A stretch of 64,000 nucleotides of DNA. Origin: an uncultured Lachnospiraceae bacterium. Its GTDB lineage: Bacteria; Bacillota; Clostridia; Lachnospirales; Lachnospiraceae. The position numbers and the translations under genes are program-made. The notes beneath the pieces were generated by a model. That model saw nothing but the letters and a program-made list of their open reading frames with translations, was not told the origin of the DNA and ran no database searches. Positions within the stretch are counted from its first letter, which is position 1, and every line of letters starts with the position of its first letter. Where the stretch lies: contig CALWOX010000002.1 in the NCBI GenBank assembly GCA_944383265.1, positions 1 through 64,000 on the forward strand. The letters are read 5' to 3'. Below are positions 13,200 through 64,000 of this stretch, piece after piece.

Positions 13200-13868
13200 A
13201 TGGGAATTATCTTATCTCCCTCAATACTTTCTGCTGATTTCAGCAAACTCGGAGAGGAGGTCAAAGCCTGCGACAGAGCGGGAGCGGAGTATATACATAT
13301 TGATGTGATGGACGGAAGCTTTGTGCCAAACATTACCTTCGGAGCTCCTGTGGTAAAGAGCATAAGAAAATGTACAGATAAAGTATTTGATGTTCATCTC
13401 ATGGTAGACGAGCCCATAAGGTTCATAAACGATTTCAAGGAGGCTGGAGCCGATATAATAACAGTACATGCTGAGGCCTGCAAGCACCTTGACAGGACAG
13501 TAAGTGCCATAAAGGAAGCGGGACTTAAGGCGGGAGTTGCCCTTAACCCTGCAACACCTGTTTGGATGCTTGACAATATTATTGAAAAGCTTGATATGGT
13601 ACTTCTTATGACAGTGAATCCCGGCTTCGGAGGACAGCAGTTCATAGACTATACCCTTGACAAGATATCGGAGCTTAAGGATGCCATAGACGAGTCCGGA
13701 CTTTTCGTGGACATAGAGGTGGACGGAGGCGTAAACAGGGAAAATATCCCTGACATTTTAGATGCGGGGGCCAACATAATTGTGGCCGGTTCTTCAGTAT
13801 TTTCCGGGGATATCGAAGGAAATATTAAACATTTTTTACAAGTGTTCTCAGAGTATTGTAACGAGTAA
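13200..13868 (+). CDS. rpe: Ribulose-phosphate 3-epimerase
   Basis: Interconverts ribulose-5-P and xylulose-5-P in the pentose phosphate pathway. The TIM-barrel signatures are present in order: LSADFSKLGEE, IDVMDGSFVPNITFG, DVHLMV, MTVNPGFGGQ and VDGGVN, followed by an AGSSVF phosphate-binding loop. Length 222 residues is typical. AGGAGG precedes the ATG. It is the last gene of the def-to-rpe conserved run. Confidence 0.96.
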   Translation: MGIILSPSILSADFSKLGEEVKACDRAGAEYIHIDVMDGSFVPNITFGAPVVKSIRKCTDKVFDVHLMVDEPIRFINDFKEAGADIITVHAEACKHLDRTVSAIKEAGLKAGVALNPATPVWMLDNIIEKLDMVLLMTVNPGFGGQQFIDYTLDKISELKDAIDESGLFVDIEVDGGVNRENIPDILDAGANIIVAGSSVFSGDIEGNIKHFLQVFSEYCNE

Positions 13869-13919
13869 AAGCATTCATATATAATCCCCACAGAATCAAT
13901 TTTCAAGGGGGATCACATT

Positions 13920-14516
13920 ATGAGGATCAACGACAAAGTTTACAGAACGGCTCTTACAGGACTGATAGCGGCACTTTCTTATGTTGTATTTACTTTTCTG
14001 CAGATAAAGATACCGCTCGGAGCGGGAGACGCCGTAAGCATACATTTCGGAAACGCTGTCTGCGTTATAGGCGCACTTATAGGAGGAGGACTTGTGGGAG
14101 GTCTCGGAGGCGCTATAGGTATGAGCATAGGAGATCTTTTGGATCCTGTCTATATCATTTATGCTCCGAAGACCTTTATATTAAAGCTTTTGATAGGACT
14201 TATAACAGGCTTTGCAGCCCACAGACTTGGAAAGATATGTTACAGTGACAATAAAGCGCATATTACAAAATGGGTGTTTATCGCAGCCTTTGCGGGATTA
14301 CTTTTTAATGCGGTGGCGGATCCCGTTTTGGGCTATTACTACAAAATACTTATACTGGGAAAGCCTGCCGCGGATCTGATGATCGCATGGAATGCGGGAA
14401 TCAGCCTTTTCAATTCCGTGACAAACTCGATAGTTTCCGGTATTATATACTTAGCTTTAAGGCCTGCCCTTATAAAGTCAGGATTATTCTTGAGAGTAGG
14501 CAAAAGCCGTACCTGA
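13920..14516 (+). CDS. ECF-type substrate-binding membrane protein (S component), probable pyridoxine-family vitamer
   Basis: Very hydrophobic 198-residue protein with about six predicted helices. Helix 1 carries a short-residue-rich AALSYVVFTFLQIKIP segment, and the glycine-rich second region is typical of group II ECF S components that share a common T/A energising module. The gene sits 44 bp upstream of a pyridoxamine kinase gene. Known PdxU-type S components are commonly next to pyridoxine kinases, so B6 vitamer uptake is the most economical guess. The substrate is inferred from context and not from a residue motif. Ribosome binding site AAGGGGGATC. Confidence 0.75.
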   Translation: MRINDKVYRTALTGLIAALSYVVFTFLQIKIPLGAGDAVSIHFGNAVCVIGALIGGGLVGGLGGAIGMSIGDLLDPVYIIYAPKTFILKLLIGLITGFAAHRLGKICYSDNKAHITKWVFIAAFAGLLFNAVADPVLGYYYKILILGKPAADLMIAWNAGISLFNSVTNSIVSGIIYLALRPALIKSGLFLRVGKSRT

Positions 14517-33641: not shown

Positions 33642-33714
33642 GGGGCATTAGCGCAGTTGGGAGCGCGCCACACCGGCAGTGTGGAGGCCACGGGTTCAAG
33701 TCCCGTATGCTCCA
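33642..33714 (+). tRNA. tRNA-Ala, anticodon GGC, with C at position 33
   Basis: Complete cloverleaf: acceptor GGGGCAT/ATGCTCC with the G3-U70 wobble that identifies alanine tRNAs, D stem GCGC/GCGC, anticodon stem CCACA/TGTGG, T arm ACGGG-TTCAAGT-CCCGT, discriminator A. The anticodon loop is CCGGCAG with anticodon GGC at 33675-33677. Position 33 (33674) is C, where almost every tRNA has U. CCA is not encoded. It reads GCC codons (and GCU by wobble). Confidence 0.92.
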
Positions 33715-52640: not shown

Positions 52641-53198
52641 CTATTTAATAAGGTCAAGACATTTCTCGGGCTCGGGAGCGTAGAGGGATGTCATTTTTAT
52701 TTTGTCGTCTATATGTTCTTCTTTAAGCATTTCCTTAAGCACATCCATGAACACGCCGCTATTTTTGATTAACTTGCAAGAGGAAAGGGTATCCTCCAAG
52801 CCCTCCCTGCAGTCAAAAGAACCGTACCAGTCCGCAAAGCAGGTGTAGTCAACACCGCAGCTGGGACTTCCATCAACGCCTAACACACCTATTACTTCAA
52901 AGAAGTCCTCATTTCTCAAATATTCCTTCATTTGATCTATAACAGGTTTAAGAATATTTCTGCAATGATTTCTGAAAAACACATTGTCAAACTGATTGCT
53001 GGTATGTCCCCATCTCCTCGGGCCATACAGGGTAAACTCCGGACAAGGGAGCTGTATTATTTGAATTCCTGAAGCTATAGCCTTGCTGAGAAATCTTAAG
53101 CGCAGATCTTCCTCCGCATCTATCTCCTCTTTGTTATACAGAACGACTTTAGAAGCTGTATTAAGTATACAATGAGATACAAATAAAATCTTTTTCAT
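52641..53198 (-). CDS. TudS-related putative desulfidase (CD3072/DUF523-like)
   Basis: 185-residue protein on the minus strand. Conserved cysteines fit the TudS/DUF523 [4Fe-4S] ligand pattern: SHCILN (Cys10), LPCPEF (Cys52) and the SPSCGV signature (Cys114). The family founder TudS removes sulfur from thiouracil; the shorter CD3072-like branch is, to my knowledge, uncharacterised. It is divergent from the GntR regulator and faces the ECF/nucleoside genes, suggesting desulfuration of a thiolated base or nucleoside after uptake. This role is inferred from context. GGAGG precedes the start on the minus strand. Confidence 0.75.
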   Translation of the reverse strand: MKKILFVSHCILNTASKVVLYNKEEIDAEEDLRLRFLSKAIASGIQIIQLPCPEFTLYGPRRWGHTSNQFDNVFFRNHCRNILKPVIDQMKEYLRNEDFFEVIGVLGVDGSPSCGVDYTCFADWYGSFDCREGLEDTLSSCKLIKNSGVFMDVLKEMLKEEHIDDKIKMTSLYAPEPEKCLDLIK

Positions 53199-53257
53199 AG
53201 TTGGCCTCCTTTTTGATTAAAGAATAAAATTTTACACTTTACAATTCAATAGATATA

Positions 53258-53288
53258 TTAACTAAATTTGTCTGACAAATTTAGTTAA
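53258..53288. promoter_or_regulatory. Perfect 31-bp palindrome between divergent genes, likely GntR operator
   Basis: Left half TTAACTAAATTTGTC, centre T, right half its exact reverse complement. GATAT (52-56 side) and ATATC (89-93 side) extend it to about 42 nt with one bulge. The core GTCTGAC fits the GT-N3-AC pattern of GntR-family operators. It lies between the TudS-like gene and the gntR start, placed to control both. Confidence 0.75.
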
Positions 53289-53302
53289 ATATCAATAAAA
53301 AT

Positions 53303-53314
53303 AGAACAACTGTT
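53303..53314. promoter_or_regulatory. Secondary inverted repeat
   Basis: GAACA-AC-TGTTC, a perfect 5-bp dyad immediately before the -35 box of the gntR promoter. Confidence 0.35.
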
Positions 53315-53323
53315 CAAAATGAC

Positions 53324-53353
53324 TTGAAATATATTATAGCATTGAATTATAAT
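53324..53353 (+). promoter_or_regulatory. Promoter of the GntR/ECF operon
   Basis: TTGAAA (53324-53329), 18 nt, TATAAT (53348-53353). It is located 36 bp right of the palindrome. Confidence 0.65.
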
Positions 53354-53413
53354 AAACAAAAATACACAAAATACACACAAGTGTAAATGATAATATATGG
53401 AAAAATATACAAA

Positions 53414-54172
53414 ATGAAGGATTTGAAAAATTCCAAATTAAAACATAATCAACCTAAATATATAGAGGCGTATCAAAAGCTTACAAAACTCATAGCAGGG
53501 CTTAAGCCCGGTGACAGACTTCCGACGGAAGAGGAGCTAACACAGGATTTCGGGGTTTCAAGAAATACAATAAGACAGGCGCTTCAAGTTCTTCATGAGG
53601 ATAAAATCATTTACAAGAGAAAAGGCGCAGGGACCTATGTCTCGGGAACACCATATTTGGGGAGGTCTGATATTTCATATTATTGTGATTGCAGAACAAC
53701 ATTGGAAAAGCTTGGTTTTGATGTGGAGGAGGAAGAAATAGCGGTTACTCTCGAAAATGCTGATACCTTAGTAAAGGATTTACTTGAGCCTAATAAATTT
53801 TCCTCTATCTTTTATATATCAAAGACATATATTGATAAGCATGATCATAAAAAAAAATATTGCTTCTGTGAGGACTATGTTCCTGTGAATTTAGACTGGG
53901 AAATTGATGCAAAAAAAATAGACAAAAAATCATTTATAAAAGAATACGAGAGACTGGGGAGAGCTTCTATCTGCAACATCACGGCAGTGCCTGCCGGGAG
54001 TTTTTACGGAACAAAATTAGGGATTGAAAAATATGATCCGGTGTTGGTCCTTCAACAGATCGTTTTGGATGAAAACGGAAATCGTATCTACATAAACAAA
54101 ACATATATGAATACCAATATTCCCGATTACTCCATTCTTGTAAACAGAAAAGAAGAAAAACTGATGATGTGA
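53414..54172 (+). CDS. GntR-family transcriptional regulator, HutC/UTRA type
   Basis: N-terminal winged helix (about 15-80) with LKPGDRLPTEEELTQDFGVSRNTIRQAL and the wing KRKGAGTYVSG. The C-terminal UTRA-like ligand domain (about 85-250) senses a small molecule, probably a metabolite of this cluster. ATG 53414 is weakly supported: the upstream ATG at 53387 is also possible and neither has a strong ribosome binding site. Length 252 residues from 53414. It is divergent from the TudS-like gene and precedes the ECF operon, so it likely controls both through the palindrome at 53258-53288. Confidence 0.88.
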   Translation: MKDLKNSKLKHNQPKYIEAYQKLTKLIAGLKPGDRLPTEEELTQDFGVSRNTIRQALQVLHEDKIIYKRKGAGTYVSGTPYLGRSDISYYCDCRTTLEKLGFDVEEEEIAVTLENADTLVKDLLEPNKFSSIFYISKTYIDKHDHKKKYCFCEDYVPVNLDWEIDAKKIDKKSFIKEYERLGRASICNITAVPAGSFYGTKLGIEKYDPVLVLQQIVLDENGNRIYINKTYMNTNIPDYSILVNRKEEKLMM

Positions 54173-54324
54173 TATATATAAATAAAATATGTAATGTAAC
54201 TTAAGTACCGGATATAAAAAAGGTGTTAAAAGACAGAAATATAAATTTTTAAAAAAGGTAAAAAAGTTTAGAGTTTTGATGGGGAACTTTGAACTGAAAA
54301 TATAAAAACAAAGGAGAAAGAAGT

Positions 54325-54921
54325 ATGGAAAAGAAACATTCAATAAAAGATGATTTTAACATGTTGGCATTATTGATAATACCTGTTGCGGTTGCTGTAA
54401 ACTTCGTAGGAGGACAGTTGGCTTCACTTTTGAAATTGCCCATGTATCTTGATACCATAGGAACAATATTTGCAGGTATGCTCTGCGGACCTTGGGTAGG
54501 CGCTGTCGCAGGAGGTCTTACCAATGTTGTTACAGGTATAGCGAACCCTGTAAACTTTGCTTTCATACCGGTCAACATTATTGCCGGACTTGTTGTCGGC
54601 GGTCTTGCCGTTCACAACATGTTTGAAAACTGGTGGAAGGCATTTATATCAACCATAATAATGGCTGTAATTTCCATCATCGTATCAGCTCCCATAGTAG
54701 TGCTTGTTTTCGGTGGAGTTACAGGAGGCGGTACCTCACTGATCACAGCTGCAGCTATGGCGGCAGGTGCAAATATATGGGCTGCATTCTTCGGAACAGA
54801 GGGTATCTTCACAGTTTTGGACAGAATCATATCTTGCGTTATAAGCTATCTTGTAATCAAGGTTATTCCCCCTCGTACACTTGTTAAGTTCAGGTGCGGA
54901 AGCTGCTATATAAAAAAATAA
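54325..54921 (+). CDS. ECF transporter S component (CD3073-like)
   Basis: 198-residue substrate-specificity protein with about six helices. Motif VAVNFVGGQLASLLKLPMYLDTIGTI is characteristic of this family and recurs in the second S gene at 61916. AAGGAGAAAG precedes the ATG. The next genes encode the T and two A subunits, so a complete dedicated ECF importer is formed. The substrate is unknown; the company of nucleoside phosphorylase and hydrolase genes suggests a nucleoside or base. Confidence 0.83.
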   Translation: MEKKHSIKDDFNMLALLIIPVAVAVNFVGGQLASLLKLPMYLDTIGTIFAGMLCGPWVGAVAGGLTNVVTGIANPVNFAFIPVNIIAGLVVGGLAVHNMFENWWKAFISTIIMAVISIIVSAPIVVLVFGGVTGGGTSLITAAAMAAGANIWAAFFGTEGIFTVLDRIISCVISYLVIKVIPPRTLVKFRCGSCYIKK

Positions 54922-55020
54922 TAGGAAATTAAATACAGATAGTATTCCCCATTTAATTACTCTGAATGATGACATAGGCTGTCATAAAAAGGAAATTCTT
55001 TGAAAGATAAGGTGACATCC

Positions 55021-55827
55021 ATGGAAAAAACATATACTGAAAAAATTCAAATTCATAAGAAAAATAAGCTTGCAGGACTTTATCCTTCTGTAAAGGCTCT
55101 GGTGGTCTTGCTGTACGCTATATGCTGCTTTATTTTGAGCACTGTAAAGCTTACAGAATATGAGCTGGCTTTGCTTCTTATCCCATGGTTTCTTGTGATC
55201 CCTGTATTGTGTGCGGCAAGCGGTGCCTTCAATAAGTGCTTGAAGGCATTCAGGGCTGTATCTATAGTTGCGTTGGTTATTTTTCTTGCCCAGTCCTTAC
55301 TGATACCGGGCGGAGAAACTGTACTTAAACTTGGCTTTCTGAAGGTAAGAGAGCAGGGCCTTCGTACGGCAATAACCCTCAGCTTTATGGTTATGGATAT
55401 TGCAGGCATATTCGTCTGGATGTTCCAAACAACTGAAAATAAAGAATTTTCCAGAGCTTTGGAGAATTCGGGTATGAATTACAAGGCAACATATGTATTC
55501 ATATCGACTCTTCAGATGATAGAAATATTGGGTAAGAACAGCAAGACTATAATGAATGCTCAGAGAGCAAGAGGAGTTGAGACTGAGGGTAATGTCATTG
55601 TCAGAATGAAGGCCTTCTTCCCCTCATTGGTTCCTCTTGTGCTCGGAGCAGTAATAAGCTCTGAGGAGAGAGTCCTTACTCTTGAGGCCAGAGGCTTCGA
55701 CGTGGCTTGTGAAAAAACACACCTTTTCAACCTGGAAAAATCAGGGATCGAGAAGCAGGTTACATTTATTGCAGTACTGATAACAATAGTTTTACTGGTA
55801 TGGAGGATTTATTTATGGATTGCGTAA
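55021..55827 (+). CDS. ECF transporter transmembrane coupling protein (T component)
   Basis: 268-residue membrane scaffold with helices at about 20-95 and 235-265 and between them a coupling region carrying QRARGVET and EERVLTLEARGFD, the two Ala-Arg-Gly type coupling motifs that dock on the A subunits. ATG 55021 is chosen over TTG 55000 because AAGGTGA lies 6 nt before it. Overlaps the next ATPase by 13 bp. Confidence 0.9.
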   Translation: MEKTYTEKIQIHKKNKLAGLYPSVKALVVLLYAICCFILSTVKLTEYELALLLIPWFLVIPVLCAASGAFNKCLKAFRAVSIVALVIFLAQSLLIPGGETVLKLGFLKVREQGLRTAITLSFMVMDIAGIFVWMFQTTENKEFSRALENSGMNYKATYVFISTLQMIEILGKNSKTIMNAQRARGVETEGNVIVRMKAFFPSLVPLVLGAVISSEERVLTLEARGFDVACEKTHLFNLEKSGIEKQVTFIAVLITIVLLVWRIYLWIA

Positions 55828-56672
55828 TAGAGCTTAAAAATGTCACATACTCATATCCTCTTACAACTGTACCTGCAATAAAGGACCTGAGTGTGAAGAT
55901 AGAAAAGGGAAAGTTTTACGGAGTTATAGGAGAAAACGGTTCAGGAAAAACCACATTCTGTGCTCTTTTAAGGGGATTTGCACCGAGCTTTTATAAAGGT
56001 GATCTGAGCGGCGAGGTCCTGGTTGAAGGTAGATCCACCCTTGAATATGGGCCCGGAGAGCTGGCTTCAAAAATAGGCTTTGTATTCCAGAATCCCTTCA
56101 CCCAGATAAGTGGTGTAAAGGACACTGTTTTTGAGGAGGTGGCCTACGGCCTGGAAAACTTCGGCGTTCCCGTCGATGAGATAGAAAAAAGGGTAGTAGA
56201 GGTCATGAAGCTTACGGACATTGAGTCTCTGGCTGAAAAGAACCCCTTCGATCTGTCGGGAGGACAGATGCAGAGAGTGGCGCTGGCATCAGTCCTTGTC
56301 ATTGAGCCTGAAATATTGGTTATAGATGAGCCTACAAGCCAGCTTGACCCTGAAGGTACAGAGAGCGTATTTAAGATAATAAGCAAGCTCAAGGAGAAGA
56401 AGAAAACAGTCATACTTGTGGAGCACAAGATCGACCTTATTGCGGAGTACGCCGACGAAGTTCTGGTATTTAAGGACGGAAGCCTTGTGGCCGCAGGAGA
56501 CAAGCAGGAGATCTTAAGTGATATGTCACTTCTTGAAAAGGGCGTGGCTCTCCCTCAGGTCGCAATACTTGGAAACACATTAAAGGAAGAGGGTGTTCCT
56601 CTGAAATACATACCTGTAACTGAAAAACAGGCAGAGGAAGTCTTTTCTGAATTGATAACGGGAAAGGAGTAA
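55815..56672 (+). CDS. ECF transporter ATP-binding protein (A subunit)
   Basis: 285 residues. Walker A GENGSGKT (39-46), Q-loop GFVFQNPFTQISG, signature DLSGGQMQRV, Walker B ILVIDEPTSQLD and an H-switch VEHKID, all complete. ATG 55815 follows GGAGG at 55802-55806. It forms a heterodimer with the next gene product, whose signature motif is altered. Confidence 0.93.
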   Translation: MDCVIELKNVTYSYPLTTVPAIKDLSVKIEKGKFYGVIGENGSGKTTFCALLRGFAPSFYKGDLSGEVLVEGRSTLEYGPGELASKIGFVFQNPFTQISGVKDTVFEEVAYGLENFGVPVDEIEKRVVEVMKLTDIESLAEKNPFDLSGGQMQRVALASVLVIEPEILVIDEPTSQLDPEGTESVFKIISKLKEKKKTVILVEHKIDLIAEYADEVLVFKDGSLVAAGDKQEILSDMSLLEKGVALPQVAILGNTLKEEGVPLKYIPVTEKQAEEVFSELITGKE

Positions 56673-56676
56673 AGGA

Positions 56677-57495
56677 ATGAAGGACTTAATACTTAAAGAT
56701 GTGAGCTTCTCCTATCCCGGAGGATTTTTGGCGGTGGACAATATAAACATGACTATAAAGTCAGGTGAAAACGTCGCCATAGTCGGACAGAACGGGGCAG
56801 GAAAGACGACCACAGTTAAAATGATGAATGGGCTTTTGAGACCTACCTCAGGGGATGTGATAATAGGGGATATGAATACAAAGGACTATACCACAGCTCA
56901 GGTCTCAAGAGTTGTAGGCTATGTCTTCCAGAACCCTGATGATCAGATATTCCACTCCACTGTTGAGAGTGAGGTGCGTTTCGGCCCTGAAATGGCAAAG
57001 CTTTCAAATGAGGAGGTAGACAGCAGGGTAGAGTACGCCTTAAAAATAACAGGAATGGACAAGTTTAAGGAGGAAAACCCCTATAACCTACCTCTATCAA
57101 TGCGAAAATTTGTAACCATTGCCGCGGTTATAGCGATGGATACAGATGTTTTGATATTTGATGAGCCTACAGCAGGCCAGGATCTTGAGGGAAATAAGAG
57201 GCTTTCCGAGATACTTAAAGAACTCCATGAAAAGGGGAAAACCGTAATCACTATATCTCATGATATGGAATTCGTAGCCTCTAATTTTGAGAGAGTTATA
57301 GTAATGGCTAAGAAGAAGGTAGTTACCATGGGTACGCCTGAGGAAGTATTTTGGAATTTTGAGGCTCTGGAGAAGGCTATGCTTAAGCAGCCCTATGTCA
57401 GCAGGGTATGCAGGGCCCTGGGAGCCAATGGAGAAATCATAAGCATGGATGAAGCGGTAAAATTTTTAAAAAGCAGGTTAAAGAGGAATGCGTAA
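56677..57495 (+). CDS. ECF transporter ATP-binding protein (A' subunit) with degenerate signature motif
   Basis: 272 residues with Walker A GQNGAGKT (37-44), Q-loop VFQNPDDQIF, Walker B DVLIFDEP (157-164) and His switch ISHDME. The LSGGQ signature is replaced by LPLSMRK (about 138-144). In a heterodimer this leaves one of the two ATP sites without a proper signature. GGAGTAAAGGA lies upstream of the ATG. Overlaps the MFS gene by 8 bp. Confidence 0.9.
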   Translation: MKDLILKDVSFSYPGGFLAVDNINMTIKSGENVAIVGQNGAGKTTTVKMMNGLLRPTSGDVIIGDMNTKDYTTAQVSRVVGYVFQNPDDQIFHSTVESEVRFGPEMAKLSNEEVDSRVEYALKITGMDKFKEENPYNLPLSMRKFVTIAAVIAMDTDVLIFDEPTAGQDLEGNKRLSEILKELHEKGKTVITISHDMEFVASNFERVIVMAKKKVVTMGTPEEVFWNFEALEKAMLKQPYVSRVCRALGANGEIISMDEAVKFLKSRLKRNA

Positions 57496-58672
57496 TACTA
57501 ACTACAAATTGATTGCTTTTTTGGCGTTTGCAATGTATTTTCTCACAGGTGCGGCGTGTATGCTTGTAGGAAGCAGCCTGCCGCAGCTTGTGGAAATGTA
57601 CGGAAAACCGACAGAGACAGTAGTTCTTTTAGGCTCTGCCTATGCTCTGGGAAGAGTGTCGACAGCCTATATCATGGGAAGACTGGTTGAAAAGATAGGT
57701 CCTATCAAGGTTTTGCTCTGCGGAATTATTTTTGTATCAGTTTACTTTATAGGAGTACCTTCCATACATATATTCTTTGTAGGCATGATCTCCGCCTTTT
57801 TCGGAGGAGCGGGAATGGCCACTCAGGATACAGTTTGCCCTGTGCTTCTCAGCACTGCCTTCAAGAATAACTACGCAGGCTCTCTGAGCGCGGGCCAGGC
57901 ACTTTTCGGCTTGGGAAATTTCGCCACACCCTTTATTATCGGTGTGCTGCTCTCATCAGGCACAGAGTTTTTCTATGGGTATTATCTTTTGCTTTTAATA
58001 CCGATAATCATGCTGATCTGCCTTCCCTTTGTTAAGCTTGACATGTCGGATCATGCAGCTGCCAAGGAGGAGGGGGTAAAGCCTCTGTATGCAAAAAATA
58101 CTAAAACAGTGATCATCGCAGCCTTTGTTATCTGCGTTGTATACAGCGCTACGGTGAATGCCATCGGCCTTTATACTTCAAGCTATGCCCTTAGCATAGG
58201 AGTCTCTGAAGCCTCATCCGCATTTATGCTTACAGCTTACAATATAGGGTGTACAGTAGGCTCCTTTGCATTTGTGATAATTCTTAGGAAAGTAAAGGCA
58301 AGGACCGTGCTTATAGCAAACAATGTTATGGCCCTTGTGGCCATTGTTGCGGCTCTTGCCCTCAACAACGTAACAATGTATTTTATTCTCCTTTTCTGTG
58401 CAGGATTCTTTTTGGGTGTCCTCTTCAGTGTCATTGTCACTATCGGTACCAGGATAGGTTATAAGCGTATCAGCGTGGCAAGCTCACTGATCGCAATTGC
58501 CAGCGGCTTTTCAGATATTCTGACACCCATAGTTACAGGAAGGGCAATAGCGGTATTCGGGATAGGTTTTTCCTATCTGTATGTCATTATTATGATAGTA
58601 CTTTGCATAGTTGCCGGAGTAATTTTGAAGATGAATACCACTGAGGTAAGGCCGGCAGGACCGGAGGATTAA
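57488..58672 (+). CDS. MFS transporter in the nucleoside cluster
   Basis: 394 residues with about 12 helices. It begins with a transmembrane helix after a short N-terminus; the GKPTETVVLLGSAYALGR and GRLVEKIGPIKVLL loop fit MFS. It is the only non-ECF transporter of this operon and could export a by-product or import a second compound. The ATG overlaps the A' gene by 8 bp. Confidence 0.85.
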   Translation: MRNTNYKLIAFLAFAMYFLTGAACMLVGSSLPQLVEMYGKPTETVVLLGSAYALGRVSTAYIMGRLVEKIGPIKVLLCGIIFVSVYFIGVPSIHIFFVGMISAFFGGAGMATQDTVCPVLLSTAFKNNYAGSLSAGQALFGLGNFATPFIIGVLLSSGTEFFYGYYLLLLIPIIMLICLPFVKLDMSDHAAAKEEGVKPLYAKNTKTVIIAAFVICVVYSATVNAIGLYTSSYALSIGVSEASSAFMLTAYNIGCTVGSFAFVIILRKVKARTVLIANNVMALVAIVAALALNNVTMYFILLFCAGFFLGVLFSVIVTIGTRIGYKRISVASSLIAIASGFSDILTPIVTGRAIAVFGIGFSYLYVIIMIVLCIVAGVILKMNTTEVRPAGPED

Positions 58673-58688
58673 ACAAGGAGGAAACACT

Positions 58689-59447
58689 ATGGCGATTCAG
58701 AGCAAGGAAGTAACTAACAGCGAAGGAAAGCAATATCATATTTGCTGTGGAAAGGGTGATGTGGGAAGATACGTACTGCTTCCCGGAGATCCCTTCAGAA
58801 CTGATATAATAGCAAAGCATTTGGATAACCCTGTACTTGTTGCCCACAACAGGGAGCACAAGACCTGGACAGGAAGCTTAAACGGAGTGAAGGTTTCCGT
58901 GACAAGTACGGGAATGGGCTGCCCTTCAACAGCTATAGCTTTGGAGGAGCTGATACACTGCGGAGCCGATACATTTATAAGAGTAGGCACCTGCGGACGT
59001 GTATGCCCCGAGAGCTATAATGAGGATCTGGAGGGCTGTATTATCACAGGAGCTGTAAGGGATGAGGGAACAACAGTGCATTATGTTCCCATAGAGTATC
59101 CTGCCATGGCGGACAGACATGTGACAGACGCTCTGGCTAAGGCCTGCGAGGCAAAGGGCTACAATTTTGCAGAGGGTATAGCCCAGTCAAAGGATTCCTT
59201 CTATGGACAGCACGATCCTGACAGTATGCCTGCAAGTGACAGGCTTCATGAGAGATGGAAGGCTTGGGAGAAGAGCGGTGTCATGGCCTCGGAGATGGAG
59301 ACCGCAGCTCTTTTCATAATATCCTCCATAAGGGGAGCAAGAGCAGGCGCCATCATGGCATACGGAAGCATGAACGACCATACTATAGATCTGGCTTGCG
59401 ATGCCATAAAAATATTGATTGAAAACGATAAGAAATCCGGCAAATAA
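58689..59447 (+). CDS. Nucleoside phosphorylase, uridine phosphorylase-like
   Basis: 252 residues of the PNP/UDP family. LLPGDPFR (about 29-36) is the phosphate site, TGMGCPSTAIALEEL a second conserved segment, GTCGR the phosphate/ribose site and ASEMETAALF (about 203-212) the ribose-binding Met-Glu-x-Glu motif. Sequence style favours uridine phosphorylase. It would release uracil (or a thiouracil) and ribose-1-P. AGGAGG precedes the ATG. Confidence 0.88.
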   Translation: MAIQSKEVTNSEGKQYHICCGKGDVGRYVLLPGDPFRTDIIAKHLDNPVLVAHNREHKTWTGSLNGVKVSVTSTGMGCPSTAIALEELIHCGADTFIRVGTCGRVCPESYNEDLEGCIITGAVRDEGTTVHYVPIEYPAMADRHVTDALAKACEAKGYNFAEGIAQSKDSFYGQHDPDSMPASDRLHERWKAWEKSGVMASEMETAALFIISSIRGARAGAIMAYGSMNDHTIDLACDAIKILIENDKKSGK

Positions 59448-59489
59448 AGTAAGTTTAAATATAGTGAGCCTGATTTTAGGGAGAACAAA

Positions 59490-60440
59490 ATGGAAGCGAG
59501 AAAAAAGATTATAATCGATACTGACTGTGGCTCGGATGATGCGATGGCCATTGCAATGGCCCTCAATGATCCCCATTATGAAATCCTTTTTTTTACAACG
59601 GTTTCAGGAAATGTTGAAGCTGCACAGGCGACAATAAATACACTTACAACCATAGAATATGCACAGAGCTATGAGCCCCCTGTATATATGGGTGCGAGAA
59701 AGCCCTTGCTTAAAAAACTTGAGTGCGCTCATGAGACTCACGGAGAGGACGGAATGGGCGACATAGGCTTGGTTCCGAAGAGACTTAAAGCGAGACCTGA
59801 AAACGGCATACTGAAGCTTCTGGAGGCCCTCAGAGAGAGCAAACCGGGGGAGATAGACATCATTGCCCTGGGACCTCTCACAAATATTGCCATAGCTTTA
59901 AGGCTTGACGAGGAAGCTGTAAAAAAGGCCGGAAGGATAGTTGTCATGGGAACCGCAGGACTGGGAACAGGAAATGTCAGTCCGGTAGCCGAATTCAACA
60001 TATGGCAGGATGCGGAGGCGGCAAAGCTTGTGACAGAGTCAGGCCTTGAGAACCTTATATATGTGGGCTGGGACGCTTGCCTTGAGGAGAGCATGCTTTC
60101 TCCTGATGAGATAAAAAAGATAAGAGAGAGCGGAAGTATAGGAAAATTTGCAATAGACTGCAACAGAGTGCTTATGGAGATGAATAAGGACAGGTTCGGA
60201 GATTATTATCTGGACATGGCCGACCCTGCGGCTATGGCTGCCGCTCTGTATCAGGATTGCATTGAAGCCTGCGACAAATATTACTGTGAGGTGGATGTGT
60301 CTGCGGGACCTTCCTACGGAGGCGTCTTGGTTGACAAATACCATTTTTCAGGCAAGGAGCCCAATGCCTATATATGCAGCAAGCTCAAGGCAGACAAGTA
60401 CAAGGAGTATATTTACAAAACTCTTAAGGTGGAGGATTAA
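59490..60440 (+). CDS. Nucleoside hydrolase
   Basis: 316 residues of the inosine-uridine hydrolase family. IIDTDCGSDDAMA (about 8-20) is the Asp cluster that binds Ca2+. ALGPLTNIAIAL and DPAAMAAAL provide further family motifs. It cleaves nucleosides to base and ribose. It overlaps in function with the phosphorylase upstream, which suggests two different nucleosides or two sugar fates. AGGGAGAAC precedes the ATG. Confidence 0.9.
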   Translation: MEARKKIIIDTDCGSDDAMAIAMALNDPHYEILFFTTVSGNVEAAQATINTLTTIEYAQSYEPPVYMGARKPLLKKLECAHETHGEDGMGDIGLVPKRLKARPENGILKLLEALRESKPGEIDIIALGPLTNIAIALRLDEEAVKKAGRIVVMGTAGLGTGNVSPVAEFNIWQDAEAAKLVTESGLENLIYVGWDACLEESMLSPDEIKKIRESGSIGKFAIDCNRVLMEMNKDRFGDYYLDMADPAAMAAALYQDCIEACDKYYCEVDVSAGPSYGGVLVDKYHFSGKEPNAYICSKLKADKYKEYIYKTLKVED

Positions 60441-60463
60441 CAGCATACAGGAGGTGTTTTCAT

Positions 60464-61663
60464 ATGGGAACAGTTAAAGCTAAGTATTTGGTGGGACCTG
60501 CAGAGTGCAATGATTGCCATTCCGCACACATTTACAGCACGGATTTTATCAATGCGGTAAGCAATGTTTTGGGCGAAACCATAGAGTGGGGAGAGATAGA
60601 GGATGTACAGAAACAGTCGCTTTCACTGTTTTTCATCGCCTCGGGAGGATCAGAGCAGTCATTCCTTAAAATATTCAGAGATTTTAAGGAGCCCTATATA
60701 CTTATGACAACGCCCGGCTACAACTCTCTGGCCGCATCAATGGAGATAATGGGGTATCTGGAAGAAAACGGATATAAGGGTGAGATCCTTCATGGCACCC
60801 CTGAGGCGGTTGCAAAAAGGCTGGCTGAGCTTAAGAGGATAGCTGATGCCAAGGTAAAGCTCTCCAAAATGAGGCTTGGATGTATAGGAGAGCCCGGAGG
60901 ACTTATAGCCAGCGATGCAGACGGGGATAAATTGCGGGAAAAAACCGGAATGAGTCTTGTTCCTGTTGACATCAATGAGCTCATAAGTGAGTACGGAAAG
61001 GGAGGATATCCCGAGAATAAATATACCGAGGAACTGAAGAAAAAGGGATATAAGCCTGAGGAGACGGAGAAGGCTTTGGCGGTATATGGCGCTCTCAAGC
61101 GTCTGATAGAGAAGTACAGCTTGGATGCGGTGACTGTCAGATGCTTTGATCTTCTTGATGCTATCCATACGACAGGATGTCTTGGCCTTGCCATCTTAAA
61201 TGCTGAAGGTATCCCTGCAGCCTGTGAGGGAGATAAGAAGAGCATGATAAGCATGTGTGTGCTGAATGCGCTCACAGGGGGATCTTCATTTATGGCAAAT
61301 CCCAGCTGCATGGACCCGGAGAAGAATGAGATAATATTCGCCCACTGCACTTTGCCCATAGACATGCCTGACAGATACAGTCTCACCACTCATTTTGAGT
61401 CAGGAATAGGTGTGGCTGTCACCTGCGACATAGCGCCTCAAGCCATGACTGTGTTTAAGTGTGACGATAAGCTTGAAAGGCATTATGCGGGAAGGGCACA
61501 GCTTATAGAGACCATGCACAGGGATAATCTCTGCCGCACCCAGATGAAGCTTAAGCTTGAAGATGGCACAAAATACTTTGCTTCGGCCCCTATAAGCAAC
61601 CACCATATGATCTGCAAGGGTGATTATAAGGAGCTTATAGACGAGTTTTTCAACAGTTTATAA
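60464..61663 (+). CDS. L-fucose/L-arabinose isomerase-like protein
   Basis: 399 residues resembling the fucose/arabinose isomerase superfamily: an N-terminal alpha/beta domain with STDFINAVSNVLGE and a C-terminal part with DRYSLTTHFESGIGVAV and HCTLPIDMPD. The catalytic Glu/Asp/His of classical isomerases are not all evident to me, so activity is uncertain. It follows the nucleoside hydrolase by 23 bp; it might act on the released pentose, for example ribose. AGGAGGTG precedes the ATG. Confidence 0.6.
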   Translation: MGTVKAKYLVGPAECNDCHSAHIYSTDFINAVSNVLGETIEWGEIEDVQKQSLSLFFIASGGSEQSFLKIFRDFKEPYILMTTPGYNSLAASMEIMGYLEENGYKGEILHGTPEAVAKRLAELKRIADAKVKLSKMRLGCIGEPGGLIASDADGDKLREKTGMSLVPVDINELISEYGKGGYPENKYTEELKKKGYKPEETEKALAVYGALKRLIEKYSLDAVTVRCFDLLDAIHTTGCLGLAILNAEGIPAACEGDKKSMISMCVLNALTGGSSFMANPSCMDPEKNEIIFAHCTLPIDMPDRYSLTTHFESGIGVAVTCDIAPQAMTVFKCDDKLERHYAGRAQLIETMHRDNLCRTQMKLKLEDGTKYFASAPISNHHMICKGDYKELIDEFFNSL

Positions 61664-61685
61664 ATAGGATAGTAAAAAAAAGAAG

Positions 61686-61714
61686 GCTTCCCGGCTAAGG
61701 CCGGGAAGCTTTTT
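61686..61714 (+). terminator. Terminator of the first ECF/nucleoside operon
   Basis: GCTTCCCGGC pairs with GCCGGGAAGC around TAAG, followed by TTTTT. Confidence 0.92.
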
Positions 61715-61814
61715 ATGTGATAAATAAAACGATTAACTATAATTGAAGATAAAGCTGATATTTGTCTTAAAAACGCTTAAATCAGGTAAATATATACAAA
61801 ATTATCGAATTATT

Positions 61815-61833
61815 ATTAGCAATATAAGCTAAT
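61815..61833. promoter_or_regulatory. Inverted repeat overlapping the -35 of the second ECF operon
   Basis: ATTAGC (61815-61820) and GCTAAT (61828-61833), spacer 7. It touches the first base of the -35 box, so it could be an operator. Confidence 0.4.
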
Positions 61834-61861
61834 TGTCTAAATATATATATGGTTGTATAAT
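61833..61861 (+). promoter_or_regulatory. Promoter of the second ECF operon
   Basis: TTGTCT (61833-61838), 17 nt, TATAAT (61856-61861). Confidence 0.7.
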
Positions 61862-61915
61862 AAAAACATCAGATTGGTAAAACGTTTATCCAATAGAAAA
61901 AAGGAGGGTTTTAGT

Positions 61916-62503
61916 ATGAAACAATGGAATAAGCTTACAATTTTCTTGCTTCCCATCGGTATTGCTGTCAATGTGGTGGGCGGCCAGCTGGCAATTATGC
62001 TGAAGCTGCCTGTTTATCTGGATTGTATAGGTACATTCATAGTGGGTTCGCTGTGCGGAATCGTTCCCGGACTTATAGTGGCTGTCCTTACTCAGATACT
62101 TAATTCCATCACTTTGCCTACAAATCTTTTGTATATCGAGATAGGTATGCTTTTTGCGGTACTTGCACATTTCTTTGCAAAGTACGAACGTTTCAAGACG
62201 ATCCCGAGAACTATATTGAACGGAATCCTTGTGGCCTGTGTCAGCTGCTGTCTTGCGGTACCCACTACAGCATTTTTGCTTGGCGGTTTCGTAGGTACAG
62301 GCGCATCAGCTATAGTTACTGCCCTTATGGCGGCAGGATGGTCGGTTTTACCTGCAACCTTTGTCAGTGAGTTGGTTACCGAGATGATGGATAAGGTCAT
62401 CTGCATGATCATTATATTCTTCATTTTGAAGTCAATACCTGAGAGATTAATAGTAAAGCTTCCGAATGCAAAATTCTTTGTTAAGGATCTTGAAGAAGAA
62501 TAA
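61916..62503 (+). CDS. ECF transporter S component, second member of the same family
   Basis: 195 residues with about six helices. It carries VNVVGGQLAIMLKLPVYLDCIGTF, clearly paralogous to the S gene at 54325. AAGGAGGGTTTTAG precedes ATG 61916. The following T and A genes repeat the order of the first cassette, with a terminator-like hairpin in between. Confidence 0.85.
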   Translation: MKQWNKLTIFLLPIGIAVNVVGGQLAIMLKLPVYLDCIGTFIVGSLCGIVPGLIVAVLTQILNSITLPTNLLYIEIGMLFAVLAHFFAKYERFKTIPRTILNGILVACVSCCLAVPTTAFLLGGFVGTGASAIVTALMAAGWSVLPATFVSELVTEMMDKVICMIIIFFILKSIPERLIVKLPNAKFFVKDLEEE

Positions 62504-62507
62504 TATG

Positions 62508-62541
62508 AAGGCAAGGGGGCAGATGCTTCCTTGCCTTTTTA
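62508..62541 (+). terminator. Internal attenuator between the second S gene and its T gene
   Basis: AAGGCAAGG (62508-62516) pairs with CCTTGCCTT (62529-62537), then TTTAAG. The U-run is short, so partial termination is likely. Confidence 0.65.
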
Positions 62542-62600
62542 AGTCTTATACTGCATAAGGAGGAAAAGGGATTTCCCGAAGGGAGATACCGAGGATAATA

Positions 62601-63398
62601 ATGGATAATATTACATTTGCTAATCAGTTTTTAAATCCGAGAAAATACGGCAATATTATTTTGGACCTTAATCCTATCAACAGGCTGAATATTTTTGTGG
62701 CTCTCGGCATCAGTACCTTTTTTGTGAACAACTATTGGTATGGCTTTGCCCTTGTGCTTTTGTTTTTTGTTATAGCTGCGGTTGCGGGAAGACTTAAGAG
62801 ATATTTCTCAGTATATTGGAAGGTCCTCTTGCTTTTCGGATTGTTTTTGTTTGTCATAAAGGCGGCGTTCTCGCCGGGAGAGCATATGATATTTCAGCTT
62901 GCGGGAATACATATCTCTACTGAGAGCATAAACTCAGCCTTAAGCCTTATCTCAAAGGTGCTTTCCTTTTCGGGAGCCATAGTTTTGTTTGTCCAGACGA
63001 CCGAGTGGGAGGATTTCACCTATGCTTTGGAACACGCGGGAGTCTCACATGTGGTTTCCTTTGTGGTACTCTCCTCATTTCAGACTATCTCTGATCTGGG
63101 AAAGAGCGCTCAGGTCATTATGGAGTCTCAGAAAGCCAGAGGAATAGAGACCGACGGCAATCTCGTAAAGCGCGCAAAGGCATATATACCTGTAATGGGT
63201 CCCCTGGTATTGAACGCTATATCAAGCGTGGAGGAAAAATCCATAGCCATGGATGCCAGAGCTTTCTCCGCGCCGGTGGCCCATACACATTTGATGGAGC
63301 TTCCGGAAGTTACGAAGTCAGAGAAGGCCTTTGTTGTCTTTATTGATCTGCTGCTTCTTGCAACAATTATCGGGAGGATCGTTATATGGCTTTTATAG
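62601..63398 (+). CDS. ECF transporter transmembrane coupling protein (T component), second cassette
   Basis: 265 residues with membrane segments at the N-terminus and at the end, and coupling motifs QKARGIET and IAMDARAFS in the middle. Paralogous to the T gene at 55021. The ATG follows CCGAGGATAAT. It overlaps the following ATPase by 13 bp, exactly as in the first cassette. Confidence 0.9.
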   Translation: MDNITFANQFLNPRKYGNIILDLNPINRLNIFVALGISTFFVNNYWYGFALVLLFFVIAAVAGRLKRYFSVYWKVLLLFGLFLFVIKAAFSPGEHMIFQLAGIHISTESINSALSLISKVLSFSGAIVLFVQTTEWEDFTYALEHAGVSHVVSFVVLSSFQTISDLGKSAQVIMESQKARGIETDGNLVKRAKAYIPVMGPLVLNAISSVEEKSIAMDARAFSAPVAHTHLMELPEVTKSEKAFVVFIDLLLLATIIGRIVIWLL

Positions 63399-64000
63399 AA
63401 TTGAATGATGTTACTTACACGTATCCGCTGATGAAGGAAGCGGCTCTTAAAAATATAAGTTACAAATTTGAAAAGGGAAAGCTTTACGGTGTAATAGGAG
63501 AGAATGCGGGAGGAAAGACGACTCTCTGCAACCTGCTCAGGGGTTTGGTTCCCCATTTCTATAAGGGGAAGCTTAAAGGCAGTGCAACTGTCAACGGAGA
63601 AGATATAAAAACAATAGATGTGGACAAACTGTCCACTCAGATCGGATACATTTTTCAGAATCCCTTTACCCAGATAAGCGGAGTAAAAAAATCCGTGTTT
63701 GAGGAGATAGCCATTGGACTTGAAAATCTGGGAGTTGAAAAGGGAGAGATAATTGAGAGGGTTTTAAAAATAGCAAAGCTTGTAAATATAGAGAGTCTGC
63801 TACAGAAGAATCCCAACGAGCTTTCGGGAGGTCAGAGACAGAGGGTGGCCTTTGCCTCGGTAATCGCCATGGACACAGATACCTTTGTCATAGATGAGCC
63901 CACGTCACAGCTTGACCCTGACGGTACGGAAGCGATCTTTGAGATAATACACACCCTGAAGGAACAGGGAAAGACCATAGTCTTGGTAGAACACAAAGTG
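63386..64000 (+). CDS. ECF transporter ATP-binding protein (A subunit), second cassette, truncated by the window edge
   Basis: At least 205 residues. Walker A is GENAGGKT (38-45), where the fourth glycine of the usual GENGSGKT is Ala. Q-loop YIFQNPFTQISG, signature LSGGQRQRV, Walker B FVIDEPTSQLD and the start of the His switch LVEHKV are present. ATG 63386 is preceded by GGGAGGATC. The gene has no stop before the window ends; a partner A' gene is expected beyond. Confidence 0.9.
   Translation, partial: MAFIELNDVTYTYPLMKEAALKNISYKFEKGKLYGVIGENAGGKTTLCNLLRGLVPHFYKGKLKGSATVNGEDIKTIDVDKLSTQIGYIFQNPFTQISGVKKSVFEEIAIGLENLGVEKGEIIERVLKIAKLVNIESLLQKNPNELSGGQRQRVAFASVIAMDTDTFVIDEPTSQLDPDGTEAIFEIIHTLKEQGKTIVLVEHKV

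Follow-up and report, generated by a model that had tools for sequence, protein, structure and literature searches.

A recurrent desulfidase-linked gene cassette in an uncultured Lachnospiraceae bacterium with a possible role in salvage of thiolated pyrimidine nucleosides

What compound is served by a gene cluster in which a TudS-related desulfidase is encoded divergently from a GntR-type regulator and beside an energy-coupling factor (ECF) importer and two nucleosidase-like enzymes? Such a cluster was found at the end of a 64,000-nucleotide stretch of DNA (hereafter the window) from an uncultured Lachnospiraceae bacterium, comprising positions 1-64000 of the 332,858-base contig CALWOX010000002.1 of a 2.30 Mb, 97.5% complete genome (GCA_944383265.1). 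An initial annotation had read positions 52641..64000 as one packed locus for import of a nucleoside, release of its base, removal of sulfur and use of the pentose. The gene families that it named, and their places, were confirmed as open reading frames (ORFs), with the ORF list, Pfam and NCBIfam in agreement. The single locus was not upheld: the genes are present, but in what look like two neighbouring units, one at 52641-61663 (unit 1) and one from the second ECF system onward (unit 2), and the window end cuts the gene run. From what was directly observed (the genes and their order, their recurrence, the changed residues, the palindrome and the hairpin), we lean, guardedly, towards unit 1 being a regulated cassette, apparently acquired by horizontal transfer, for uptake and breakdown of thiolated pyrimidine nucleosides, 2-thio substrates being likelier than 4-thio substrates.

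Recurrence of the cassette was followed in 81 loci, consisting of the best 80 of 236 relatives chosen by CD3072 match plus the window, which were gene-called from the best-supported ORFs rather than by a gene finder and clustered; many of these loci end at contig ends, and no desulfidase was called in L056, L059, L080, L086 and L098. The nearest relative of the desulfidase (83%) was that of L041, from an uncultured Lachnospiraceae bacterium. An ECF S gene was found near the desulfidase in 42 loci, the phosphorylase in 25, the hydrolase in 22, phosphorylase and hydrolase together in 18 and the isomerase-like gene in 17. Co-occurrence of the desulfidase with the S gene and phosphorylase, which the initial annotation had named as a check, was therefore largely borne out (42/81 and 25/81), although the core also occurs without the desulfidase, as described below. 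Copies of unit 1 were found among Lachnospiraceae, Erysipelotrichaceae and Oscillospiraceae, and the order of the window block is repeated in L041, L044, L046, L048 and L049 and, with addition of a gene for a TenA-like protein, in L043, L047, L053 and L069. Recurrence of the block around this desulfidase in other genera and families indicates more than chance. Among 200 same-family genomes, all five CD3073 genes scoring above cut-off adjoin a CD3072 gene.

The type of importer also varied. Ugp-like permeases with an SBP_bac_8 binding protein were present in 18 CD3072 loci (L056, L071, L073, L082, L083, L084, L086, L087, L091, L094, L096, L097, L098, L099, L103, L105, L108 and L110) and ECF components in 42, with both in none, a pattern that one would expect of a desulfidase serving an imported compound. 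There may be two ways to feed one desulfidase, with a nucleoside or base entering by the ECF importer and perhaps a nucleotide by the Ugp-like system. A Cof-type haloacid dehalogenase (HAD) protein was encoded in 11 of the 18 Ugp-like loci and a type-I phosphodiesterase in five. In a desulfidase tree of 76 rows these contexts cluster yet change repeatedly (22 changes, against 40.3 when shuffled), and members from Chloroflexota, Actinomycetota and Spirochaetota lie among those of Bacillota, a mixture pointing to transfer, although these members come from metagenome-assembled genomes.

The desulfidase scored above the equivalog cut-off of NF045597, the CD3072 family (170 against 130 bits). Alignment with canonical TudS by hhalign gave a probability of 88% and an E value of 3e-6, with C10, CPE and SPSCG aligned to TudS motifs, so that the three cluster cysteines and the CPE and SPSC motifs of TudS (DUF523, PF04463) are common to both. 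Residues C10, C52, C114, E54, S111 and S113 are the counterparts of Cys10, Cys43, Cys104, Glu45, Ser101 and Ser103 of TudS, which according to excerpts of PMC10611767 ligate its cluster or are proposed to take part in catalysis. The PCPE, SPSCG and RWG[H/Q] motifs were present in all 76 called homologues and the N-terminal cysteine motif in 74, the two exceptions starting at a contig end. Unlike TudS, the desulfidase falls below the TudS family cut-off, carries the family-wide RWGH/Q motif, an insert after SPSCG and three extra residues separating the Lys at the Arg17 position from the following Tyr, and is transporter-linked (alignments of 40 desulfidases of the 81 loci, A7, and of only four canonical TudS, A8). 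Judged from these profiles, CD3072 is a remote relative of TudS; the desulfuration of thiouracil cited as known in the initial annotation is indeed known, but belongs to canonical TudS. We know of no activity reported for CD3072 itself.

Matches to NF045597 were found in 17 of the 200 same-family genomes, 15 of them above cut-off, with no match in the single same-genus genome. Four of these 15 (L032, L034, L038 and L039) represent a second subfamily, 24-29% identical, that passes the cut-off without the RWGH motif and without the insert after the third cysteine motif; the NCBI family may, by this measure, lump two functions. The window genome also encodes a separate canonical TudS. When canonical TudS was sought in the 17 genomes, 10 of which belong to the CD3072 clade aligned in A2, it was found above cut-off in six of those 10, the window genome among them. 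Canonical TudS is described in excerpts of PMC10611767 as preferring 4-thio-UMP and as binding 4-thio, and not specifically 2-thio, substrates. Coexistence of the two proteins would allow for a second desulfidase that acts on a different compound.

The phosphorylase scored below the TIGR01718 equivalog cut-off (243 against 280 bits) and matched the Streptococcus pyogenes uridine phosphorylase (UP) 3qpb over residues 10-229 (phmmer E 6e-73); its C-terminus after the matched stretch is shorter than that of the model (27 against 34 positions). Residues that we take to form the phosphate and ribose sites are retained. In E. coli UP, according to excerpts of PMC5238616, Gln166 binds N3 and the C2 carbonyl, Arg168 contacts the C4 carbonyl directly and Arg223 does so via water, and by calculation Gln166 may by itself be enough to bind and activate 2-thiouracil. 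This Gln166/Arg168/Arg223 triad is incomplete in the cassette enzymes, which unlike Udp of E. coli and 3qpb have lost the C4-carbonyl arginine. The Gln166 equivalent was retained in all 24 aligned phosphorylases, none of which has an Arg in the next seven residues; in 22 of the 23 enzymes whose C-terminal loop was evaluated, its first 14 positions are also free of Arg (the exception being L066, with L054 left unevaluated). The alignment (A5) held 24 of 26 cluster members, omitting the second copy of L066 (GE for GQ) and the outlier L106, which lacks this motif. In the window enzyme the equivalents of Arg168 and Arg223 are absent, and the HMMER alignment places an Asp in the Arg168 column; S. 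pyogenes UP likewise has an acidic residue in this column, but with an Arg three positions on.

A comparable change was seen in the hydrolase, which reaches the IU_nuc_hydro family score (PF01156, 264 bits) and shares the N-terminal Asp motif of RihB/YeiK and RihC, the inosine-uridine nucleoside hydrolases, but differs from them in having Ala for the His of the HD motif, presumably a functional residue. This replacement occurs in all 21 rows of alignment A6, the window included (21 of 23 cluster members, omitting two divergent L070 copies with HD and YD). The specialised hydrolase was found in five of 198 genomes, three of which also have the desulfidase.

TenA (thiaminase II) hydrolyses a 5-aminomethylpyrimidine, the type of reaction that would, by analogy, be needed on 5-aminomethyl-2-thiouracil. 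A TENA_THI-4 protein is encoded in 11 of the 81 desulfidase loci, beside the phosphorylase or hydrolase gene or divergent from the desulfidase gene, with the phosphorylase in 10 and the hydrolase in nine of the 11; the TenAs of L053 and L069 are 99% identical and L129 and L130 come from the same genomes as L047 and L053. Two members align to PDB TenAs at 5e-21 and 2e-19. The subfamily (>480 bits) was seen only at CD3072 loci, in two of the 200 same-family genomes and in none of 391 same-class genomes, where the best other TenA scores were 117 and 114 bits, respectively. Cys135, Tyr112 and Glu205 are retained in all 11 proteins, one of 27 other TenAs from those genomes having Asp for Glu, and the tyrosines are kept (for Tyr139 and Tyr163 we presume the roles that they have in TenA). 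The position of Asp44 is occupied by Asn in 11/11 of the TenA-like proteins, against Asp in 27/27 of the others. In TenA, as stated in excerpts of PMC5623701, Asp44 hydrogen-bonds amino groups of the pyrimidine ligand and Cys135 is the nucleophile; D44A, Y112F and E205A impair the enzyme and C135A inactivates it. Where an aminopyrimidine has N3 and 4-NH2, a uracil-type base offers N3-H and the C4 carbonyl, and an Asn at this position can satisfy the latter pair. Taken together, the base-site changes in the phosphorylase and in the linked TenA-like protein point, as far as residue comparison goes, to an unusual pyrimidine.

The operator region that had been proposed between the divergent desulfidase and regulator genes was found as a 31-nt palindrome with 15-nt perfect arms. 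It is kept in L041 with 16-nt arms and two paired substitutions, a pattern that suggests selection; because of this conservation the palindrome is likely to be the operator of the GntR regulator. A survey for perfect arms of at least 8 nt in the 320 bases upstream of the desulfidase, covering the 28 loci that encode phosphorylase or hydrolase and have a desulfidase call, gave matches in the window and L041, both of GntR type, and palindromes of differing sequence in L074 and L106. Loci with a Crp-like regulator (cluster c10, present in 15 loci) gave no such palindrome. With palindromes in only four of 28 loci, one operator common to all was rejected. Control by a riboswitch, as in a vitamin locus, was also set aside, the sole match of the window at the Rfam gathering score being a tRNA at 33642-33714.

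Unit 1 carries a complete ECF transporter, with S and T components and two ATPases together. The initial annotation had proposed two ECF importers with S components of one family, and both do match NF045596 (CD3073), at 126 and 92 bits against an equivalog cut-off of 180, but the second looks like a separate unit. It is set apart because it starts after a hairpin and recurs far from the desulfidase in the genome G085: the 189 bases that separate the second S gene from the isomerase-like gene contain a GC-rich hairpin followed by T, and in G085 the second T component, ATPase 2b, M20 peptidase, amidohydrolase, GATase1-like protein and LacI-type regulator recur at 62-84% identity with a CD3073-like S gene alongside, approximately 1.5 Mb from the desulfidase. 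The hairpin comes from scans that return consensus matches only (35 promoter-like, 24.6 expected; 12 terminator-like, 9.4 expected). The amidohydrolase of unit 2 (E <= 1e-40) was present in only two of the 200 same-family genomes, those of the window and G085. A second S and T gene follow the isomerase-like gene in L041, at the end of that locus, and no such pair follows it in L043, L044, L046, L048 and L049. The idea of one locus whose two importers share a substrate was accordingly disfavoured, and the second ECF system probably serves another compound. CD3073-like S matches in the 200 same-family genomes often lie within open frames of approximately 570 to 1600 residues, suggesting ECF fusions.

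Table 1. Features of the desulfidase cassette and adjoining unit 2 in the window
Feature	Position	Strand	Evidence
CD3072-type TudS-related desulfidase	52641..53198	-	NF045597, 170 bits
Palindrome, 31 nt (15-nt arms, 1-nt centre), probable operator of GntR/UTRA regulator	53258..53288	.	
GntR/HutC-type regulator (GntR + UTRA), divergent from desulfidase	53387..54172	+	Pfam
ECF S component 1, CD3073-like	54325..54921	+	NF045596, 126 bits (under cut-off); PF12822 above cut-off
ECF T component 1	55000..55827	+	PF02361 (CbiQ)
ECF ATPase 1a	55800..56672	+	ORF; homology cluster c1
ECF ATPase 1b	56677..57495	+	ORF; homology cluster c1
Major facilitator superfamily (MFS) carrier	57488..58672	+	PF07690; cluster c12
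Uridine-phosphorylase-like enzyme (PNP_UDP_1)	58689..59447	+	TIGR01718, 243 bits; alignment to PDB 3qpb and other bacterial UPs
Nucleoside-hydrolase-like enzyme (IU_nuc_hydro)	59490..60440	+	PF01156, 264 bits
Arabinose/fucose-isomerase-fold protein	60464..61663	+	AlphaFold model; Foldseek match to L-arabinose isomerase
Terminator-like hairpin after unit 1, 10 pairs (8 G-C)	61686..61709	.	Scan listed - strand; on + strand followed by TTTTTA
Unit 2 ECF S component 2	61853..62503	+	NF045596, 92 bits (under cut-off)
Unit 2 ECF T component 2	62601..63398	+	PF02361; 66% identity to G085 copy
Unit 2 ECF ATPase 2a, cut by window end (ends at contig position 64231)	63386..64000	+	

A scheme can be drawn from these genes in which every activity, the substrate and the order of base release and desulfuration are what we infer from sequence. 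ECF importer 1 would carry the nucleoside into the cell, and the phosphorylase-like and/or hydrolase-like enzyme, with altered base pockets, would free the base. The CD3072 desulfidase would take off the sulfur at a [4Fe-4S] cluster, by analogy with TudS. Ribose or ribose-1-phosphate would be used, perhaps through a ribokinase together with the isomerase-fold protein. Export of the spent base may fall to the MFS carrier, and the GntR repressor would sense substrate or product at the palindrome. The MFS carrier (cluster c12) occurs in 12 loci, counting the window, and a ribokinase-like gene (cluster c13) in 11, at varying closeness. The sugar-isomerase-like protein of the initial annotation agrees with the predicted fold: it has no Pfam family, but its AlphaFold model (pLDDT 90.7) matched L-arabinose isomerase with a Foldseek E value of 6e-19 and TMq of 0.79, and the AraA entries listed (L-arabinose/L-fucose isomerase) gave TMq of 0.74-0.82 at only 11-15% identity. 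As a clue to the sugar it was discarded; the contexts of members of its sister family (310-391 bits), compared with cluster profiles only, gave no common feature.

A number of observations weigh against this scheme. The desulfidase scored under the TudS Pfam cut-off (PF04463, 25.7 against 34.7 bits), no TudS was among the PDB matches of the CD3072 profile, and for the desulfidase model (pLDDT 92.1) Foldseek returned no match, to TudS or otherwise, at E <= 0.001 in a search run without a structural positive control; a canonical TudS from a relative matched PDB 6z92 at 7e-29. In 18 of the 81 loci an S gene is present without phosphorylase and without hydrolase, the scheme does not account for the pairing of the two nucleosidases in the cassette, and the Fisher values for co-occurrence in the 81 loci ignore relatedness. 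No TenA was found in the 97.5% complete window genome. Unaltered E. coli UP cleaves 2-thio nucleosides well (PMC5238616, in excerpts), so that loss of the arginines is permissive, and not required, for a 2-thio base. Desulfidase-free versions of the core were also found: ECF, hydrolase, MFS and Crp-like regulator genes in L174, ECF, phosphorylase and MFS genes in L173 and, in L206, the specialised hydrolase with no ECF in the stretch covered. The genomes of these three gave no CD3072 match, that of L174 (G179) having no canonical TudS either. The substrate thus need not always carry sulfur; the core may accept modified pyrimidine nucleosides at large, the desulfidase and TenA-like protein being add-ons. 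The pathway of import, base release and desulfuration that had been put forward is supported in part, by recurrence and by the base-site changes. Such loci would also suit a chance packing of a general pyrimidine nucleoside operon beside an unrelated desulfidase, but we consider this improbable given that the arrangement recurs over several genera and families and that the divergent genes have the palindrome in common in both the window and L041.

Canonical TudS bears on the choice between 2-thio and 4-thio substrates. The four of the 10 CD3072-clade genomes that lack it above cut-off (G015, G085, G123 and G155) include G015 and G155, which apart from the window genome are the only same-family genomes sampled that carry the full cassette, and CD3072 may replace TudS in these two; the argument from coexistence is modest for this reason. 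Together with the acceptance of 2-thio nucleosides by E. coli UP, this weakens the case for 2-thio salvage and raises that for salvage of 4-thiouridine or 4-thiouracil as by canonical TudS, with CD3072 a divergent TudS acting on the same substrate. The common catalytic motifs would fit such a role, as would the finding, in excerpts of PMC12210855, that expression of a C. difficile TudS, of whichever gene, protects S. aureus from 4-thiouracil. Nevertheless, six of 10 genomes carry both proteins and the TenA link has no role with a plain 4-thio base, and we regard 4-thio salvage as rather unlikely.

A sharper form of 2-thio salvage, which we put forward tentatively and with some doubt, takes the substrate to be the wobble nucleoside 5-(carboxymethyl)aminomethyl- or 5-methylaminomethyl-2-thiouridine. 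The desulfidase would take the 2-sulfur and the hydrolase or phosphorylase would free the ribose, and the TenA-like protein, where present, would use its Cys nucleophile, in the manner of TenA, to expel the 5-CH2-amine, releasing 5-methylamine or glycine. Firmicutes and some relatives might, on this speculative view, possess a pathway dismantling (c)mnm5s2U that combines a 2-thio-specific Fe-S CD3072, a TenA re-tuned to (thio)uracil, away from aminopyrimidine, by Asp44 to Asn, re-tuned nucleosidases and a dedicated ECF importer, with the Ugp-like variant handling thio-nucleotides. Confinement of the TenA-like subfamily to CD3072 loci (11/81), mostly with phosphorylase or hydrolase, the uniform Asn beside an intact catalytic Cys135, Tyr112 and Glu205, and the reasoning that Asn can pair with uracil all favour it. 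On the other side, within the stretches covered no TenA-like gene was found in 15 of 25 phosphorylase loci and 13 of 22 hydrolase loci, nor was a TenA found in the window genome, a flipped Asn can bind an aminopyrimidine too, and no description of TenA chemistry on uracils was present among the literature matches listed. Membership of the TenA family, and the vitamins that ECF importers often carry, could suggest thiamin-related salvage, in which thiamin or one of its breakdown products would enter by the ECF system, the pyrimidine being handled by TenA and the sulfur by the desulfidase. This appears very improbable, since the amino-group-reading residue is changed in 11/11 TenA-like proteins, phosphorylase and hydrolase would have no role and the Rfam scan of the window showed no TPP riboswitch.

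The pair of desulfidase and S component is not new, the NCBIfam names CD3072 (NF045597, putative desulfidase) and CD3073 (NF045596, putative ECF S component) being already adjacent in numbering; the window desulfidase makes the equivalog score and its S genes do not. The nucleosidases, TenA partner and residue changes are absent from those names and, as far as the open-licence literature searched shows, both these partners and the logic drawn from the residues are new. No mention of CD3072, CD3073 or their locus tags was found in that literature, and no such locus was described among its matches listed. We know of no 2-thio-specific desulfidase. Queuosine salvage reportedly uses the ECF importer QrtT/QueT to import a tRNA-derived modified base, but differs in its S family, by name, and in involving deazaguanine rather than sulfur chemistry. 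If thiolated pyrimidine salvage by unit 1 is correct, it would represent a little-studied route for recycling modified RNA, with sulfur-bearing building blocks coming from degraded transfer RNA, and the locus names candidates for a 2-thio desulfidase, a thionucleoside importer and a TenA acting on uracils. The locus could also be a sign of a nutrient niche or of a detoxification route.

The gene run passes the window end and reaches about contig position 71280. Unit 2 continues there with ATPase 2b, an M20 peptidase, an amidohydrolase, a GATase1-like protein and a LacI-type regulator whose best match, under cut-off, is RbsR. The M20 peptidase consists of two overlapping ORFs (L007:13071-13574 and 13538-14353; contig C2 65070-66352, outside the window) and is one ORF of 426 aa in the G085 relative, which would fit either decay or an assembly error. 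Further downstream lie a ribokinase-like kinase, with a score under cut-off, and a HAD protein (L007:18591-19280) above the cut-off for the YjjG noncanonical-pyrimidine nucleotidase (188 against 159.9 bits), followed by an ORF that is presumably threonyl-tRNA synthetase. The cluster of the YjjG-type protein has a member adjoining the desulfidase in L045. Among more distant contexts, an Oscillospiraceae desulfidase clade (L072, L075 and L085) has neighbours c36 and c37 in common, with c22 (SpoU methylase) and c30 additionally present in L075 and L085.

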